IMG/VR virus record: IMGVR_UViG_3300009610_000069 | Location: 1-29,220 of that record | Source of the DNA: a virus | DNA: 29,220 nt | Direction: 5' to 3' (one strand) | Position numbers and translations under genes: made by a program | Notes under the pieces: model-generated | What the model saw: the letters and a program-made list of their open reading frames with translations, nothing else | The model's database searches: none | Told to the model about the DNA's origin: nothing | Shown: positions 15,037-23,230 of the stretch, one piece after another | Layout: every line of letters begins with the position of its first letter | How positions within the stretch are numbered: the first letter of the stretch is position 1

Positions 15037-15396
15037 TTATAATCCTTTTAGCCATTCTGTTGGTATTGTTCCGATAGCATACTTAAAACCATTCTTTATT
15101 GCCCAGCGAATGTTCTTTTTATCGGTACTGTAGAATAACATTCGGATGTCTCGTTCTGGGTGTTGTCTCTTGACAGCGCATAACTTAACGCGACTCTCAC
15201 GTCGAAGATATCCTTTGCATTCAATATACAAAGTACCGTTAGGAGTGTCAATAATGAAGTCCGGAATATAGTGGCCAGCAACCACATAGGGTATTTTCTC
15301 TGATTCATACTTAAAAGGGACTTTAGCCCGTCGTAGTTGGGTGTATATCTTCGCTTCGAATCTGTTTCTTACTGAAGTTGACTTGGCCTTTGGCAT
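15037..15396 (-). CDS. Endonuclease I-like Holliday junction resolvase (T7 gp3 family), 119 aa
   Basis: The protein carries the PD-(D/E)XK core of T7 endonuclease I: RFEAKIYTQL with Glu14, then HYIPDFI with Asp46, and LYIECKG with Glu59 and Lys61. These correspond to the T7 active-site quartet Glu20, Asp55, Glu65 and Lys67. Length (119 aa against 149 in T7) and the downstream aromatic, basic stretch (RQHPERDIRMLFYSTDKKNI) also fit. The enzyme cuts branched DNA, resolving recombination intermediates before packaging and helping break down host DNA. The first 74 nt overlap the upstream 69-aa gene in another frame. It sits in the replication block near the exonuclease gene, as in T7-like phages. 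Confidence 0.9.
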   Translation of the reverse strand: MPKAKSTSVRNRFEAKIYTQLRRAKVPFKYESEKIPYVVAGHYIPDFIIDTPNGTLYIECKGYLRRESRVKLCAVKRQHPERDIRMLFYSTDKKNIRWAIKNGFKYAIGTIPTEWLKGL

Positions 15397-15639: not shown

Positions 15640-16521
15640 TCAATTGTAAACTACCTTTCCATTACGATCTACCTCTGTTATCGGTCCATTCTGATTAAAA
15701 GGACGTTTAACTACTTTCGTGAAGTATGCAGGTCCGTGTGCATAGAGGAAGGTCCGTAGGTGAGGATGACAGCAATACTTGTAAGACGAGTAGCTCGCTT
15801 TTGTATCAAGCTGCATGTTGCCTGCTGCTCCAGCCGGGATAGATCTGCACTCACAAGGAGGCGGCTCAGCCAGGCTAACGATGTACTTGTAACTTCTAAT
15901 TCGTTCCCTAAGAACTCTTTCTCGGTCATTGGTGACCTCATGTGGGTAAAGGTGCATATGTCCCAGCTGTTTATCGACAATAAGTAGATATCCTTTGTCC
16001 TTAACCTTCACGAGAGGATCATCTGCAGCAGCCAATACGTAGCTATCCAGCTGATCAAGATAGCCAAAGAGATCATCAAATACTCCGCTCTTGAACTTGG
16101 TAAAGCTGATGCTAGCAGCTGACTTAACATCAACGGTACAGCCGTCAATGATACAATCGCGGTGACCAACAATGCCGTCCAATACCAGTTCATCTTGTTC
16201 CCCCGTCACTTCATGACCAGCAGCCTTTGCGTAGGCTATGGCCAGTGCTTCTATCGTATGTCCAAAGGAATATTTTACTTCAGCCCAAGGCGGTAGCGCC
16301 TCAGTAAGTTCAGGAGTGTGTATGCTATGCCACAGTGCTCTCGGACAGCGTTGTCCCATCTGAGAGAGACGGAGTGTAGGCGGGCCTTGTCTTCCTTCAA
16401 ATTGCTCTTTAATGCGCCTAGCCAGCCCTTCTGAGAAATGTTCTCCAATTTCCTTTGTAAACCAACCATCCTTCTTTCTCACTAATGTATATATATCAGA
16501 AATAAGTGTATCTATTGTCAA
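15640..16521 (-). CDS. RecB/Cas4-type PD-(D/E)XK exonuclease, 293 aa
   Basis: The N-terminal part has GQRCPRALWHS (Cys59), followed by the nuclease core: GHTIE with Glu91, GHRDCIIDGCTVDVKSAA with Asp122, and Asp131-x-Lys133. The C-terminal region (GNMQLDTKASYSSYKYCCHP then LRTFLYAHGP) aligns with a segment that in this phage family normally carries C-x2-C-x5-C for a 4Fe-4S cluster. Here the first two positions are Ala242 and Ser245, and only Cys251 remains. The enzyme probably plays the role of T7 gp6 exonuclease, removing primers and degrading host DNA. The stop is followed by a gap of about 100 nt. The fold assignment is firm; the cluster state is discussed in the findings. Confidence 0.85.
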   Translation of the reverse strand: MTIDTLISDIYTLVRKKDGWFTKEIGEHFSEGLARRIKEQFEGRQGPPTLRLSQMGQRCPRALWHSIHTPELTEALPPWAEVKYSFGHTIEALAIAYAKAAGHEVTGEQDELVLDGIVGHRDCIIDGCTVDVKSAASISFTKFKSGVFDDLFGYLDQLDSYVLAAADDPLVKVKDKGYLLIVDKQLGHMHLYPHEVTNDRERVLRERIRSYKYIVSLAEPPPCECRSIPAGAAGNMQLDTKASYSSYKYCCHPHLRTFLYAHGPAYFTKVVKRPFNQNGPITEVDRNGKVVYN

Positions 16522-16536
16522 TTAATGGGTTCCTCC

Positions 16537-16833
16537 TTAGAACCCTAGGATCTTCTTCCAAATGATGAGGTATTCGATGTAAGTGACGATGGGGGAGAGG
16601 ATCAGAAGCAGAAGGATGGCCACCAAGAATGCGGACCATTGTTTCTTATCTTCCTTCTTCTCCATTGTCTTGAGATAACCGTCATACTTTCTCCACCAAT
16701 CAACTCTGGCGAAGAAAGCATCGTTCATATCATGCTCGTGACCCAACCTAGTTCCACCTAGCTTATGGGTGCGAACGCCTTTCTCATATTGAGGTGGAAG
16801 AAACTCGATACGGGTCGGCTTCAGATTATTCAT
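16537..16833 (-). CDS. Membrane-anchored phage protein, 98 aa
   Basis: ATG 16833 is preceded by GCACGGGAGCCTCAC, with GGGAG about 7 nt upstream. The N-terminal 60 residues are polar and charged (RIEFLPPQYEKGVRTHKLGG, with DWWRKYDGYLKTMEKK). The C-terminus has one membrane helix (AFLVAILLLLILSPIVTYIE) and a short tail, so the protein is probably a tail-anchored inner-membrane protein with its N-terminus in the cytoplasm. It follows directly the 3' end of the large noncoding RNA region and ends 16 nt before the exonuclease start. No family is recognised. Confidence 0.75.
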   Translation of the reverse strand: MNNLKPTRIEFLPPQYEKGVRTHKLGGTRLGHEHDMNDAFFARVDWWRKYDGYLKTMEKKEDKKQWSAFLVAILLLLILSPIVTYIEYLIIWKKILGF

Positions 16834-16871
16834 GTGAGGCTCCCGTGCTATTCATGTTCAAATTAATTAAG

Positions 16872-16898
16872 CGGGGGTTAGGTTTGCACCGGCCCCCG
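16872..16898 (-). terminator. 3' hairpin of the large RNA, terminator-like
   Basis: CGGGGG (16872-16877) pairs with CCCCCG (16893-16898); inside, GGT (16881-16883) can pair with ACC (16888-16890). On the minus strand the stem is followed by CTTAATTAATTTG, only moderately U-rich. It lies 38 nt upstream of the 98-aa gene and would mark the 3' end of the noncoding RNA, perhaps with partial read-through. Confidence 0.6.
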
Positions 16899-17332
16899 TC
16901 GTCTTGTTATCTATTTAAGGGGGCTGCTTAGGGGTGAAGAGATAGTACACCGTCATTATAGCCTCCAAAGTCGTTGACGTTTGGTGCTTGCGTCTTCGGG
17001 TTTCGTGGCCCTACCTGCTTACGGTACTAGTGTCCCTTAGTGCGAACGGACGCTCGTCTGCCATGCATGTAACCCACGGCCTGCGCTGGTTCACAGACTT
17101 TTGGGAGACCGCTGCCCATTCCCTTATCAGATACCGTCAGTAGCGTTAGGGACGGACATTTATTGAGGTAGGATTAGCCTTGTTTCACCTCGCCCCAAAT
17201 GGTGGGTTAATCCAAGGGTAACCTCGTGAACTGAACCCTGCCGAATCAGCAGTGCGTTTGCCTCCGTTTGCAGTCCCGGACTTTATTACGCCACCCGTTC
17301 TCCGGTTTCTAGGATACTTCCTTCAACACGGG

Positions 17333-17615
17333 GCAGGATTCGAACCTGCAGTTCAGTGATGCTGCGCCTCTGTTCACCTAGAAGTGGGGGGGCCACCGCC
17401 CGAATCGAACGGGCATCGAGACATCAGCGAGGCACGTCTTTGCATTACGTGCGTCCCCTTCCTCTATCTTCACGACTCCGGGGTCGGACTTGCACCGACA
17501 TTGGCCGGCTTTCACACCAGCTGCATGACTAGAGTTGAACGTCCAACTCTGGCTACCGCATCTCTACAACGTCAGTTGTAAAGACTTGCTCTAACTGAGG
17601 AGGATTCGAACCTCC
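17333..17615 (-). other. Cluster of four tRNA T-arm-like modules inside the large RNA
   Basis: Four 17-nt elements each have a perfect 5-bp stem and a 7-nt loop: 17599-17615, 17483-17499, 17398-17414 and 17333-17349. Minus-strand loops are TTCGAAT, TGCAAGT, TTCGATT and TTCGAAT; three fit the tRNA T-loop consensus TTCRANN. None has a matching acceptor 5' strand at tRNA spacing. The last two stems are separated by only 48 nt, too little for tandem tRNAs. D-arm-like stretches occur nearby (AGTTGGCTTGAGCA at 17674-17687 and CTCAGTTAGAGC at 17587-17598, minus strand). They look like T-loop modules built into a larger fold, or tRNA-derived remnants. Confidence 0.6.
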
Positions 17616-18303
17616 CTCGCCATTCTGCCACCCTCATCTATGGACTTTCGAGGTTAGGACATGCTGCCAGAGATGCTCAAGCCAACTACATCCATCACCA
17701 GGCTGTAGGAGACGTGTCTCTGGACTACTACTATGCTGCACCAGGGAGTTAGCCTGGTTGACCTAGGGCTATTACATTCCTGTTTTGCCGTCCCTCTTCT
17801 CGCCCTGCTATTCCCCACCGTAGTAGGAGCCCATAGCAGCTGGACTTGACCTAAGGTGACGAGACACGAACAGGACTTAGCACGCTGATCTCACGTCTGC
17901 GACCGGACAGGCGTCATAGCTTGTGGTCCTGGTAGGTGCTGGTCCTGTTTTAGCCTCCACCGGACAGCTAGGCGGGTGCACCTGCTTCCAGGTGCTGACA
18001 CCAGAGCTTCCATTCACAGGATAGCGTGGCGTGTGAGCACAGTTGTGTCGCCTCAGTCGTTTCCATCCTTTGGAGGGGATGTTGGCGTCTCACAGTCGGA
18101 CTGCACGCCTTGTCTTCCGACGATACGGCACTAGTTAAGTGCTGCTGCGAATCCAGGTTCGCAACTTCCTGACTCTCCCCCTTCGGCCTCAGGATATGAT
18201 CCTGATACACGCCACGGTTGACCGCCGTTCGCACCGACACTGGGAGTTAGAGAGTATTTGTATCCGCATCACATTCCGGATACGCGGTTTGACAATTCGC
18301 TAA

Positions 18304-18323
18304 TGGGGGGATTGCTCCCCCCA
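18304..18323 (-). terminator. GC hairpin between the 58-aa gene and the large RNA
   Basis: On the minus strand TGGGGGG, a 6-nt loop and CCCCCCA form a 7-bp stem, 5 nt after the stop of the 58-aa gene. No U run follows (next bases TTAGCG). It may be a 3' protective or processing hairpin, an inefficient terminator, or the first helix of the large RNA. Confidence 0.55.
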
Positions 18324-18328
18324 AACTG

Positions 18329-18505
18329 TTAGCTAAGCTTCTCGACCTCGATAGCCGGAACAACTTCCTTAGTCACGGCGATGGCCTGCACGATGGCATA
18401 CGGTTCGTCATTCTTAACCGTATACTGCTTAGCAACTCTCTCCGCCTCTGCGTACGTCTCGTAATTGAGACTGTGCATACGGAGGATATGGAACTTGTTC
18501 TTCAT
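18329..18505 (-). CDS. Small phage protein, 58 aa
   Basis: The frame extends to 18637, but ATG 18505 has AAGAAGGAAACAAGAAA directly upstream, an excellent ribosome site, while the longer form would overlap the SSB gene; 18505 is chosen. The product begins MKNKFHILRMHSLNYETYAE and then has AERVAKQYTVKNDEPYAIVQ, a short alpha-beta fold in which a helix is followed by beta strands ending in KEVVPAIEVEKLS. Compact proteins of this kind are common in phages. No function is known. It is the last protein gene before the large RNA. Confidence 0.72.
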   Translation of the reverse strand: MKNKFHILRMHSLNYETYAEAERVAKQYTVKNDEPYAIVQAIAVTKEVVPAIEVEKLS

Positions 18506-18526
18506 TTTCTTGTTTCCTTCTTCTTG

Positions 18527-18579
18527 GGCTATAGGATAGCAATAGCCTAAAGAATCTAGAGATTTAATATAATCTTTAG
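18527..18579 (-). promoter_or_regulatory. Tandem leader hairpins ahead of the 58-aa gene
   Basis: CTAAAGA/TCTTTAG (18547-18553 with 18573-18579) and GGCTAT/ATAGCC (18527-18532 with 18542-18547) form two adjoining hairpins, sharing base 18547. They occupy the gap between the SSB stop (18576) and the ribosome site of the 58-aa gene. They could protect or process the mRNA; no U run follows, so a terminator is unlikely. Confidence 0.4.
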
Positions 18580-19088
18580 AATAGCTGAGGAGGTTGGTCA
18601 TCCAACCCTTTAAGGTCTTTCTCTTTCCTTTCGTCACGAGACTCCTTTGTATATGGGACTAAGTTATCTACTCTAACGGCCATTAGTCTAATTGCCTTTC
18701 CTTTTGAGAAGATACCTTTCTTGAAGGGTCTCTTAAACGTATAGACCTCAACTTTAGCAGTGACATCAGAGCCATTGCCGATCATTACATCTTTGGGAAG
18801 AGGACGACCTTCGGCATCTAAAACATCTGGAGGAGACAATGGTTCAACACCTCTTCCGAAGTCCTTATACATCTGACGTCTGAGCGTTATAGACGTACCG
18901 TCGTCGTCCATTTTAACTTCATTCAAAATACCTTCTGTTTCCTCTTTAGATTCCTTCAATTTCATAAATTTATCTAAAGATTCCGGTGTCGGATAAAGTT
19001 TAAGGTTCCAGTTCTTATACACAAGATCAGGATGCTGAACTTTAGCATGATGAGCCTTACCTTGAAAAAATTCATATTGCTTAGGCAT
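18576..19088 (-). CDS. Single-stranded DNA-binding protein, T7 gp2.5-like, 170 aa
   Basis: The protein starts MPKQYEFFQGKAHHAKVQHP and has the phage SSB pattern of an aromatic/Gln start (FFQGKAHHAK), NLKLYPTPESLDKF in the first third, and IGNGSDVTAKVEVYTFK followed by GKAIRLMAVRVDNLVPY. These are typical OB-fold strands of the gp2.5-like family. The C-terminus (DLKGLDDQPPQLF) ends in Phe after acidic residues, as in T7 gp2.5, where this tail contacts polymerase and primase-helicase. It would coat ssDNA at the fork. GGAAGAAG lies 6 nt upstream of ATG 19088. The gene overlaps a 47-aa ORF by 8 nt and follows the polymerase gene, a usual T7-like neighbourhood. Confidence 0.78.
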   Translation of the reverse strand: MPKQYEFFQGKAHHAKVQHPDLVYKNWNLKLYPTPESLDKFMKLKESKEETEGILNEVKMDDDGTSITLRRQMYKDFGRGVEPLSPPDVLDAEGRPLPKDVMIGNGSDVTAKVEVYTFKRPFKKGIFSKGKAIRLMAVRVDNLVPYTKESRDERKEKDLKGLDDQPPQLF

Positions 19089-19224
19089 TAGTTACTTCTT
19101 CCACTCCTCTAATTGCGACGAAGATATCTGCATCAACTTCTGCCAGCTTGTCCAAGACAAGATCTTCCGCCGCTTCTTCATTCTTTGCTTCAACTTCAAT
19201 ATCTGTATTGACTACGTAAAGCAT
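19081..19224 (-). CDS. Small acidic protein, 47 aa
   Basis: ATG 19224 is preceded by TAGGAGTATGAA, with GGAG about 6 nt upstream. The frame ends in TAA at 19081-19083, overlapping the SSB gene by 8 nt. The product (MLYVVNTDIEVEAKNEEAAE, then DLVLDKLAEVDADIFVAI) has a strand-helix-strand pattern and is strongly acidic. No family is recognised. Tight packing between polymerase and SSB genes and a good ribosome site support it. DNA mimicry or polymerase binding would be speculation. Confidence 0.65.
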   Translation of the reverse strand: MLYVVNTDIEVEAKNEEAAEDLVLDKLAEVDADIFVAIRGVEEVTNA

Positions 19225-19233
19225 TTCATACTC

Positions 19234-21165
19234 CTAATGTGTCTTATACCAATTTGTTCCTATGGTATAGTCTTTGTTATCTTCATTCCAATAGCTTCCT
19301 GCCATTGGGCATTTAAGTTTGTATATCTCTCCTGCTTCCTTGATTGCGTCTGCTTTAATCTGTGCAACTCTCAAAGCAAAGTCCATTGAATTCCTAGTTT
19401 CAGATTGTAACTCATCATGAACTATGTCTACGAACATCCATTGTCCAAGTCTCTTTTCAGGTTCAAGATTAGTGTCCGCAATAATAGCGGCTCTCTTGAT
19501 GATAATGGCTTCGCCATTTTGTAGGTACCCAGACATACATAGATGAGTTCTCTCACTTTCCGTGCTGCCGGGGAGCGGGACCTTACGACCATCCAATCCG
19601 ATAAAGTATCCACGTCTCGCATCTTTTGGGATAACAGTTCGCTTAAGATACGCGAATCCAGTGTACCGTTCGAGTAGACGATCAAGCGCTTTGCGTGTTT
19701 CGGGTACTGGACAGTCAAGGATCTGAGCAAGCTTTCCAAGTCCCCCGCCAAGTAAGAGCGCATAGACGAAACGCTTAGCGTCTTGCCTAGATTTACAGAC
19801 GCTACCAAGGATTCGTTGGTTAAGCGAATGCGGATCGGTTTTAGTCTCTTTCCTGCCATTGACGAGGGCATCGGTAAACTCCTTATCGTCGATGTAGTGG
19901 GCAAATACCCTAAGCTGAATACCTTCTGCATCAACACCAACTAGTACTCTATTCTTAGGAGCACACCAGAGTTCTCGCATCTCTTTGCCTAGGAGTTTAA
20001 CAGGCGTAGGGATGTTTGCTGTATTAGGCTGCTGGTGAGCCATACGATGGGTCCAGGCTCCTATGCCGTAGAACCTACCGTGTATACGGTTATCCTCTTG
20101 GACGAGGCCAAGCCATTCGGTAAGAGTCCGTCGACGGCTTTCCAGGAGGATACGCTTAGCTAGGAGCCTGGCTCCTTCGGGAGCCCCATCTGGCAATGTA
20201 CCTAAGTTATTTTCATTAATCTTCCACCCACTAACCATAAGTTGTCGAAGCCGATGTCGTTCTTCTTCAGAAGGTTTCTTATTTCTTTGAATTTCTCTTT
20301 CGACATCAATGTGTGTTTGGGTCTTATCTTCTGGTTTCCACTTAGCTTCATTAAGCACTTCAATCAGCTGTTTATGACTACTCGGGTTAAAAGGTTCTAA
20401 TCGAGTGTGCTTATAAGTCTTACCATCCTCATACTTGTGTATTTCGTGATGAAGAACTCGGGGCACACTCGTTCGGGATATGGTCCCGAACTTGGTGAGT
20501 TTGGGCGTAAACTCCCTAATCAATACTTCTCTAGGAGGAAATGCTTCTAAGATCTTTTTGTCTAACTCAGTTAATTGCTTTTCTACCTTAGCAAGCAATA
20601 CAGTAGCACTAGACTTATTAAAATGGAAGCCCCCGTCATGTAACTCATTGACAATAAGTTGGAAGGAGTGTTCCAACTCAATAGAACTAGCCCATGTAGG
20701 ATCAGATATAATAGGCAGATACTTAAGATAAATTCTATGGCAAATGTCCACATCTCGTATGCAATAGTCCTCCAACGGTTGAGACCATTTCTTAAAGAAT
20801 TCTAGATAATGGTTCTTTCCCTTAGGTAGACCAAACTCTTCTCCATACTGTTCAATAGAGTGTCCGCCCTCTCGTGAATAGTTTACAAGCTTGGAAATAA
20901 TGAGAGTGTCAATACAATGAGTAGAAACATTATCACACTGAAGGTTAAGAAGCTTGCTGAGACAAGGCCAATCAAAGCCAAGGAAATGATGCCCAATCCA
21001 TAAGTCCACACTTTCTGCGAACTTAAGGAAATTCTCTTTAGCTTGTTCATCATCTTCGCACCTGAATATGTGATACTCGTTTGTATCTATGTTCTTACAA
21101 ACGATCAACCAAATCTTCGTAGGATTGTTGTAAGCATCGCATTCAATGTCTATTACAATTCTCAA
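19234..21165 (-). CDS. DNA polymerase, family A (T7 gp5-like), 643 aa
   Basis: An N-terminal 3'-5' exonuclease has Exo I DIE (Asp6, Glu8), Exo II GHHFLGFD (Asp65) and Exo III YCIRD (Tyr134, Asp138). The polymerase domain has motif A VGVDAEGIQLRVFAHY (Asp412), motif B with Lys464 and Tyr468 in QDAKRFVYALLLGGG, and motif C VHDE (His583, Asp584, Glu585). It is a little shorter than T7 gp5 (704 aa). All catalytic carboxylates are present, so it should be an active replicative polymerase with proofreading. The start is TTG at 21165, with AGGG about 9 nt upstream; no ATG precedes the exonuclease motif. Downstream come the 47-aa and SSB genes, so replication genes are co-transcribed. Confidence 0.95.
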   Translation of the reverse strand: MRIVIDIECDAYNNPTKIWLIVCKNIDTNEYHIFRCEDDEQAKENFLKFAESVDLWIGHHFLGFDWPCLSKLLNLQCDNVSTHCIDTLIISKLVNYSREGGHSIEQYGEEFGLPKGKNHYLEFFKKWSQPLEDYCIRDVDICHRIYLKYLPIISDPTWASSIELEHSFQLIVNELHDGGFHFNKSSATVLLAKVEKQLTELDKKILEAFPPREVLIREFTPKLTKFGTISRTSVPRVLHHEIHKYEDGKTYKHTRLEPFNPSSHKQLIEVLNEAKWKPEDKTQTHIDVEREIQRNKKPSEEERHRLRQLMVSGWKINENNLGTLPDGAPEGARLLAKRILLESRRRTLTEWLGLVQEDNRIHGRFYGIGAWTHRMAHQQPNTANIPTPVKLLGKEMRELWCAPKNRVLVGVDAEGIQLRVFAHYIDDKEFTDALVNGRKETKTDPHSLNQRILGSVCKSRQDAKRFVYALLLGGGLGKLAQILDCPVPETRKALDRLLERYTGFAYLKRTVIPKDARRGYFIGLDGRKVPLPGSTESERTHLCMSGYLQNGEAIIIKRAAIIADTNLEPEKRLGQWMFVDIVHDELQSETRNSMDFALRVAQIKADAIKEAGEIYKLKCPMAGSYWNEDNKDYTIGTNWYKTH

Positions 21166-22591: not shown

Positions 22592-23230
22592 TTATAATCT
22601 CCAGTTAATTGGTTCTTTGCCTAGTTCGCTAAGCAAAGCATTAGTACGCGTGAATATTCTACTCCCTGAGAAGCCTCTACTGACTCCTAAAGGAGATGGG
22701 TGACTTGTATGAATAACAGGGCTACGAGTACAAGCCACAGTATGAAGTTGGGCCACCCTTCCGAGAGCCACAAAAACAACTTGACCATCGAGTCTCTCCA
22801 CTATCTCTTTGGTTAAGTAAGTCCATTCTTCCCAATGATGTGAGCCGGGTTTGCCTGTGGCACAACTTGGATACACATTCCACAATAGCACCCCCTGCTC
22901 ACACCATGGGGTTAAGTCCCCGTTCTTAGGTGCGGGGTAATGTAGATCATCTTCGTATTCCTTGAAGATGTTAACTAGCGTCGGCGGGAATTCTCCTACT
23001 CCACATGTTGCGGGGATGGAGAAGGCAACGCCGGTTGCGTGTAGGCGTTTGGGATAAGGATCTTGGCCGATGATCGCCACTCTGCAGGACTCTGGATGTA
23101 CAAGCCGCAGAGCAGCAAAAAGTTCAGTACGAGGAGGATTGTATTGAGTTTCATCCTTAAGCCTTTCCATGATGACTTGCCATTCACCTGTACGCCAGTA
23201 ACTTAAGTTCCAATAATTTACGCCAATCAT
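22592..23230 (-). CDS. ung: Uracil-DNA glycosylase, family 1, 212 aa
   Basis: Diagnostic motifs are present: GQDPYP (55-60) with the water-activating Asp57, GVAFS with the uracil-stacking Phe70, GVLLWN with Asn118, GKPGSHHWEEWT in the region that recognises DNA ends, and HPSPL (177-181) with catalytic His177. The length matches family 1 enzymes (about 220 aa). The enzyme removes uracil from DNA, leaving abasic sites for repair. The start overlaps the 62-aa gene as ATGA with GAGG just upstream. It lies between primase-helicase and polymerase genes, so it is expressed with replication. This implies normal thymine-containing phage DNA, unless the enzyme is aimed at host or rival DNA. Confidence 0.93.
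   Translation of the reverse strand: MIGVNYWNLSYWRTGEWQVIMERLKDETQYNPPRTELFAALRLVHPESCRVAIIGQDPYPKRLHATGVAFSIPATCGVGEFPPTLVNIFKEYEDDLHYPAPKNGDLTPWCEQGVLLWNVYPSCATGKPGSHHWEEWTYLTKEIVERLDGQVVFVALGRVAQLHTVACTRSPVIHTSHPSPLGVSRGFSGSRIFTRTNALLSELGKEPINWRL

Follow-up and report, generated by a model that had tools for sequence, protein, structure and literature searches.

The locus studied here raises the question of what a phage encodes in a long stretch of its replication block that lacks genes, and whether the product is an RNA of a known kind. The window, i.e., the whole stretch of DNA analyzed, is a virus record of 29,220 bases, in which the noncoding block extends from position 16872 to 18328 with the minus strand as RNA sense; all RNA features described below lie on this strand. 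The block is situated between an ORF of 102 and an ORF of 98 amino acids, and no credible ORF is present from 16833 to 18329, i.e., from the start of the 98-aa ORF to the end of the 102-aa ORF. Its G + C content is 0.51–0.57, compared with 0.39–0.47 in the flanks. A first-pass annotation of the sequence had described a gene-free, G + C-rich stretch with GC hairpins at both edges, which agrees with the present results, whereas the length that it gave (1,495 bp) has to be corrected to the 1,457 bp spanned by positions 16872–18328. Its central proposal, that the minus strand of the replication block encodes a structured noncoding RNA, is borne out by conservation and covariation across relatives, with a length of about 1.4 kb.

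Conservation of the noncoding block and its fold

Upstream of the block, on the same strand, are the genes of a gp2.5-like single-stranded DNA-binding protein (SSB-like; 18576–19088; PHROG 112, E 3e-6) and an A-family DNA polymerase (19234–21165). The gene of a Cas4-domain exonuclease (15640–16521, minus strand; PHROG 1990, E 1.8e-20) is located downstream and was the query for collecting relatives. The replication block also encodes a Uracil-DNA-glycosylase superfamily protein (22592–23230) and a phage endonuclease I (15037–15396). The exonuclease retrieved 50 loci at first and 80 when a profile was used, and the clade was defined by an exonuclease identity of at least 48%, which comprises approximately 69 loci on uncultured soil-phage contigs. 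In every clade member whose locus covers the interval between the SSB-like and exonuclease genes, this interval contains a syntenic, mostly non-coding and divergent block, typically with 1–2 kb between long ORFs; several intervals hold extra ORFs, a few loci fall short of the interval, and some blocks that measure less than 1 kb between ORFs are broken up by spurious ones. In outgroups (exonuclease identity of 43% or less) the interval either measures 187 bp, as in the L041–L049 group, or is taken up by ORFs, and T-arms were not found in it. The noncoding block is a trait of the clade, and more distant phages are without it. The best exonuclease identity among isolate phages was 43%, which places no isolate inside the clade; the hosts are perhaps alphaproteobacterial. 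A search of bacterial genomes with the exonuclease profile yielded no relative, and the RNA used as blastn query found no match among isolate phages.

The block sequence is barely alignable across the clade, except with the nearest relative, L002/L003 (67% over 1.1 kb). Because a quick MAFFT alignment of all members aligned the window poorly, models of single domains were built instead; an exact-pattern search with CAATGTCGGTGCAAG returned mostly unrelated contigs. From comparison of the relatives, the minus strand between 16.9 and 18.3 kb is predicted to encode a single family of structured noncoding RNA, or several RNAs in a co-transcribed chain, with position and fold conserved across one uncultured soil-phage clade and the sequence hardly so.

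The fold of the block as a single sequence is unremarkable (z −1.8 in sense and −3.5 in antisense direction), and therefore the many hairpins listed in the first-pass annotation were weak evidence by themselves; the structure that they were taken to indicate is supported comparatively. Windowed RNAalifold of the window and L002 gave z values of −4.1 to −5.7 in four windows of the 5′ half, which together cover 18315–18098, 18097–17946 and 17789–17633, with a weaker signal in the 3′ third. The consensus fold of these two sequences (span of up to 350) contained 61 double-changed, 36 one-sided and 175 unchanged pairs and 1 incompatible pair, counts that amount to support rather than proof because an energy-based consensus of two sequences favors compatible pairs. 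Covariation among homologs, on which the annotation had made its proposal depend, was found both in this consensus fold and in the domain models described below.

The 5′ half is supported by covariation with one relative and by a conserved hairpin in 17 loci. Its conserved 5′ block, CATTAGCGAATTGTCAAACCGCG (18283–18305), is identical in L002/L003, where the upstream sequence is unrelated. It is followed by a conserved hairpin with invariant pairs, GTTGCGAACCTGGATTCGCAGC (18144–18165), by the hairpin GCACCTG-GAAG-CAGGTGC (17978–17995) with three double-compensatory pairs relative to the nearest relative, and by the hairpin GGTCGCAGACGTGAGATCAGCG (17879–17904), whose inner stem is GAC/GTC, GGC/GCC or CGC/GCG among the 17 loci. 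The GC hairpin GGGGGG-AGCAAT-CCCCCC (18305–18322), which separates the conserved RNA from the upstream ORF, is missing from L002 and is thus placed outside the conserved RNA. At the other edge, the hairpin GGGGG...CCCCC (16873–16897) lies between a 3′ motif and the ribosome-binding site of the 98-aa ORF, and a hairpin near this position is also visible in cluster A.

The 3′ motif, CAGCCCCCTTAA (16915–16926), has the family consensus CNCCTTAA. Most members carry it close to the 3′ end of the block, some 20–140 nt before a likely ribosome-binding site, with its N varying freely. This arrangement, together with the small ORF often found 3′ of the RNA and the fitting synteny of the adjacent gene, would be expected if the RNA were a giant cis-regulatory 5′ leader of the membrane-like 98-aa ORF or of the exonuclease operon that reads the state of tRNAs or translation. 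Such a function is improbable, as the variable N does not track the Shine-Dalgarno sequence, no intrinsic terminator was found in 16400–19300, and the length is far beyond that of known riboswitches. The same behavior of the N led to rejection of the motif as an anti-Shine-Dalgarno element.

tRNA-like domains in standard and permuted order

A scan for T-arms (5-bp stem with a G53–C61 pair, and the T-loop consensus) in 41 regions, near-duplicate contigs included, found 81 T-arms in sense direction, compared with 1.2 expected from mononucleotide shuffles, and none in antisense direction. C56 is kept in 101 of the 118 T-loop hairpins that have G53–C61, T54 and A58. The window has four T-arms (17599–17615, 17483–17499, 17398–17414, and 17333–17349). 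The third of them, GCCCG-TTCGATT-CGGGC, forms a unit (17398–17452) with the hairpin GCACGT-AATGCAAAG-ACGTGC (17432–17452); the others were assigned to two tRNA-like domains, here termed TLS-A and TLS-B. Apart from T-loops, the commonest 7-nt loop across the clade blocks is CTCATTA (20 hairpins), followed by TGGTGAA, CTCTGAA, and CCCTGAA, and several of these common loops resemble anticodon loops with U33.

TLS-A was recognized by a trio that recurs across members, in which a short UAAU-like linker connects a hairpin whose loop is of the GUGNAA type to a T-arm. A covariance model of it, R1, was trained on seven sequences, among them the window, which it accordingly matches with E 1.7e-20 (17480–17529); the third unit of the window is a weak match (E 0.009). 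R1 found 24 loci at E < 1e-4, all in sense direction and all in the block, and none in the outgroups. On these loci 97.3% of the cells were paired and 11 of 11 pairs had double changes, with a covariation of 0.934 versus 0.243 in shuffled alignments (0 of 500 shuffles) and 0.06–0.18 in slid registers, statistics that lean toward the model because the alignment was fitted to it. A tRNA-Leu/Ser-like motif of the TGGCNGAAT type occurs 54–264 nt upstream in 17 of the 24 loci. Pairing is seen between the 7 nt in front of this motif and the 7 nt behind the T-arm (mean score 5.18 versus 3.29 with swapped partners, 0 of 5,000 permutations; in one locus with two candidates the better motif was taken, and a few loci are near relatives). 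Since the upstream motif is found and the flanking acceptor strands pair, TLS-A is read as a domain in tRNA order with a long insertion: 5′ acceptor, U8-G9-D-arm start, 54–264 nt of insertion, anticodon-arm-like hairpin, T-arm, and 3′ acceptor. In the window these parts are the acceptor-like strand ATGAGGG (17631–17637), which takes part in the family-wide pairing; the D-arm start TGGCAGAAT (17622–17630); an insertion that carries an additional T-arm, GGAGG-TTCGAAT-CCTCC (T-arm 1, 17599–17615); the hairpin GCTGGT-GTGAAA-GCCGGC (17504–17521), with double changes in six of six pairs, and the T-arm GTCGG-TGCAAGT-CCGAC (T-arm 2, 17483–17499), both part of R1; and the 3′ strand CCCGGAG (17476–17482), which is not followed by CCA.

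TLS-B (17230–17357) is circularly permuted. In 17 members a hairpin adjoins the 3′ side of a T-arm, either directly or after a very short linker, and leads on to U8-G9 and a D-arm that has G18-G19; this arrangement was found 0 times in antisense direction. The hairpin takes the place of the acceptor, for instance as CTACC-GAAA-GGTAG, CCCC-ACC-GGGG or CTAGC-AGTT-GCTAG, and its loop has 3–9 nt in several members. The domain of the window is swollen by a 29-nt acceptor loop and an insertion in the D-loop. Its T-arm, GCAGG-TTCGAAT-CCTGC (T-arm 4, 17333–17349), precedes the acceptor (17294–17332), which is regarded as closed because CCCGT (17328–17332) pairs across the loop with ACGGG downstream (17294–17298). 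This helix shows double changes relative to CTCAT/ATGAG of L002 and covaries at four of four modeled pairs in 20 loci. U8-G9 and the D-arm, TGGCGTAAT...GGCAAACGC with a GCG/CGC stem, follow at 17254–17293, and a hairpin identical in L059, CTGC-TGATTCG-GCAG (17238–17252), takes the anticodon-arm position. The outer helix of ACTGAAC (17351–17357) and GTTCAGT (17230–17236), which has 8–9 bp in the window and L059, attaches the domain and contains an extra hairpin in the window.

A second covariance model, R2, trained on seven loci without the window, found the window at 17254–17349 with E 8.8e-7 and 20 sources at E < 1e-3, all in sense direction. On 20 sequences 98.2% of the cells were paired and 9 of 12 pairs had double changes, with a covariation of 0.572 versus 0.158 in shuffled (0 of 500) and 0.04–0.11 in slid alignments, and the 11–24 pair of the D-arm switches between C-G and U-A among members. 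The strong matches of either model (24 for R1, 20 for R2) correspond to about 20–24 of the approximately 69 clade members. The strand after the D-arm pairs with sequence upstream of the T-arm over 10 bp (L071), 8 bp (L021, L087, L083) or 7 bp (L096, L115, L081); the score of this anticodon stem, taken as the best of a search, averaged 5.1 versus 3.9 with swapped partners and was individually significant in about 7 of the 17 members. A hairpin, partly read by eye, often occupies the place of a class II variable arm. In many members, TLS-B is predicted to be joined to the remainder of the RNA through its anticodon stem and often to have a long variable arm.

The order of TLS-B, with the 3′ half before the 5′ half and an opening at the anticodon, is also the exon order expected of a permuted group I intron-exon system that excises a circular tRNA-like RNA. 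This origin is extremely improbable: the group I intron core (RF00028) had no match in the window and none above cut-off in 19 other records, acceptor loops of 3–9 nt leave no site for processing or for CCA in several members, and the bacterial Y RNA YrlA regularly shows this closed layout too. Permuted tRNA genes of algae and archaea likewise encode the 3′ half before the 5′ half, and their transcripts are processed back into standard tRNAs according to work cited in PMC10085705. The short acceptor loops of several members and the lack of CCA suggest that in the clade RNA the permuted form is the final form.

Comparison with known RNA classes

Neither the block of the window nor that of 14 relatives contained an Rfam match at gathering score, and a permissive search of the window block (E up to 10) gave chance-level matches only, none of them to GOLLD, ROOL, OLE, HEARO or raiA. 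The suggestion of the first-pass annotation that these RNAs are the closest class thus found no support, and no family in the searched RNA library covers the whole molecule. ARAGORN detected neither a tRNA nor a tmRNA in the window, and an ordinary tRNA array was dismissed as there was no RF00005 or ARAGORN call in the block of the window or its relatives. The annotation had held that a set of ordinary tRNA genes would speak against its proposal; no such set is present, but the block does hold tRNA-like domains, one of them permuted, which the annotation overlooked. Standard searches for tRNAs and RNA families can miss tRNA-like structures that are permuted or carry insertions.

The numerous T-arms and the D-arm sequences resembling tRNA-Leu/Ser might be the remnants of phage tRNA genes that drift without function, and 5 of 20 records do have one ordinary tRNA each elsewhere. 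Such decay is very improbable, being contradicted by the compensatory changes in every modeled pair of TLS-A and in all pairs of the acceptor hairpin, by the closure of acceptors on themselves, by the fact that these compact phages have retained a block of about 1 kb or more wherever the locus is covered in the clade, and by the lack of calls mentioned above. A tmRNA, which is likewise a long RNA with a tRNA-like domain and has a permuted gene order in some bacteria, was rejected because neither RF00023 nor ARAGORN identified one in the window or its relatives; the clade RNA also differs by the sealed acceptor of TLS-B, the lack of CCA, and the lack of a predicted tag frame.

With RNAs of the GOLLD and ROOL type the clade RNA shares its great length, its elaborate structure, and its occurrence in phages. 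These large phage RNAs form homo-oligomeric cages and are often tied to tRNAs (PMC12286853). The clade RNA is longer, and its tRNA-like domains would be part of its own fold instead of neighboring tRNA genes. Large ornate phage RNAs are known, and a search of open-licence PubMed Central papers found none described with such domains in its own fold. By analogy with these cages, the domains may be purely architectural, forming the rigid elbows at the corners of a large RNA scaffold or cage without binding tRNA factors, and their free variation and permutation among members would suit structural parts. The T-arms nevertheless keep the full tRNA T-loop consensus including C56, and the D-arms keep G18-G19 and the covariation of the 11–24 pair, which argues for a likeness to tRNA closer than a generic T-loop needs; moreover, the clade RNA has no sequence kinship with GOLLD or ROOL. 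A scaffold alone is a serious though rather doubtful explanation, and nearly as good as one in which the elbows contact host factors.

Likeness to bacterial Y RNAs and possible role

The layout of TLS-B is already known from YrlA, to which a pattern scan of bacterial genomes and an Rfam search led. Both have a T-arm, an acceptor hairpin closed by a loop, a U8-G9-like linker and a D-arm, attached via the anticodon-stem side, and by this criterion (T-arm, closed acceptor hairpin, D-arm) the clade RNA is predicted to possess the tRNA-mimic module of YrlA. In Aliiroseovarius (L290), the cmscan alignment to the YrlA model RF02553 shows T-arm, acceptor hairpin and D-arm in the order of TLS-B. Within the clade, matches to this module alone came from L069 (E 5e-6) and L113 (E 1.7e-4), with weaker ones from L074, L060, and further records; the window matched with its T-arm only (E 0.76, 10.7 bits). 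None of them reached the gathering score of 69 bits set for the whole model, the best clade member having 29.4 bits, and control genomes likewise give matches below cut-off, for which tRNAs can be responsible. YrlA has 90–150 nt; the Ro protein Rsr sits on its basal stem, PNPase binds to the tRNA-like domain, and DusA and TruB modify the RNA (review PMC8394870). The setting here would be an RNA ten times longer, of more than 1 kb, in which the module is one part and often has a class-II-like variable arm. As no TROVE gene (PF05731, Ro/Rsr) was found in 16 clade phage records, the analogy to YrlA is limited to the tRNA-like module.

The best explanation is a structured RNA with two tRNA-like domains that engages host factors, and as a whole it is held with moderate confidence. 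Its structural part is highly probable, and the contact with host factors, which rests on analogy, is tentative. T-loop/D-loop pairs would form tRNA elbows, which may help the large RNA to fold. Because the acceptor is sealed in TLS-B and CCA is lacking in TLS-A, neither domain is expected to be chargeable, and the RNA might expose uncharged elbows to elbow-reading host factors, for which YrlA suggests PNPase, TruB, and DusA as candidates. While the phage replicates, the RNA would most likely recruit or titrate host factors that act in RNA decay or bind tRNA. Conceivably, the clade RNA represents a new class of giant phage RNA that consists largely of domains derived from tRNA, in normal as well as permuted order, and captures the host machinery for RNA decay or tRNA handling as a multivalent mimic of tRNA elbows. 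It joins three subjects treated separately so far, giant phage RNAs, bacterial Y RNAs and permuted tRNAs, and offers a concrete guess at the host contacts of giant phage RNAs; in these compact phages most bases of the RNA change, yet T-arms, D-arms and the Y-RNA-like permuted module are kept.

Several observations outside the block concern the same permuted order; 64 of the viral matches to the permuted pattern turned out to be two adjacent ordinary tRNAs. Aliiroseovarius halocynthiae (L290, 2684–3271) contains an array of YrlA copies beside a tRNA, one above the gathering score, one with 61 bits and one weak, and the 61-bit copy has a tRNA-Leu-like D-arm in place of the usual GUAGCUCA type. 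In other bacterial genomes, mostly of Bacteroidota (L289, L292, L303, L305, and others), noncoding stretches with a T-arm, a closed hairpin and a tRNA-Leu-like D-arm were found, some with two joints in tandem (T-arm, hairpin, D-arm, T-arm, hairpin, D-arm); they are not YrlA at gathering score and are partly called as poor tRNAs. Short RNAs that share this permuted order and have a closed acceptor hairpin of 7–8 bp were found in large phages, several of them within tRNA-rich regions (L192, 3957–4008; L173, 7956–8008, also L214 and L218; L180, 1241–1293; L178, L190, L167, L212, and L231). An ACAGCAA motif and an outer helix that closes the structure are present in several of them. These RNAs escaped ARAGORN as well as Rfam at gathering score; RF02553 recognizes some below cut-off (records of L192, E 4e-11, and L178, E 1.7e-7), and they therefore look like phage Y RNAs.

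Within the clade, two contigs (L002 and L003/L059) are 99.9% identical over the RNA but are distinguished by a piece of 117 nt at the 5′ end of the RNA, just 5′ of CATTAGCGAATTG. This piece holds a T-arm and the acceptor-like ends GGGTTAGG ... CCCAACCC, and a tRNA-like module would thus have been gained or lost recently.
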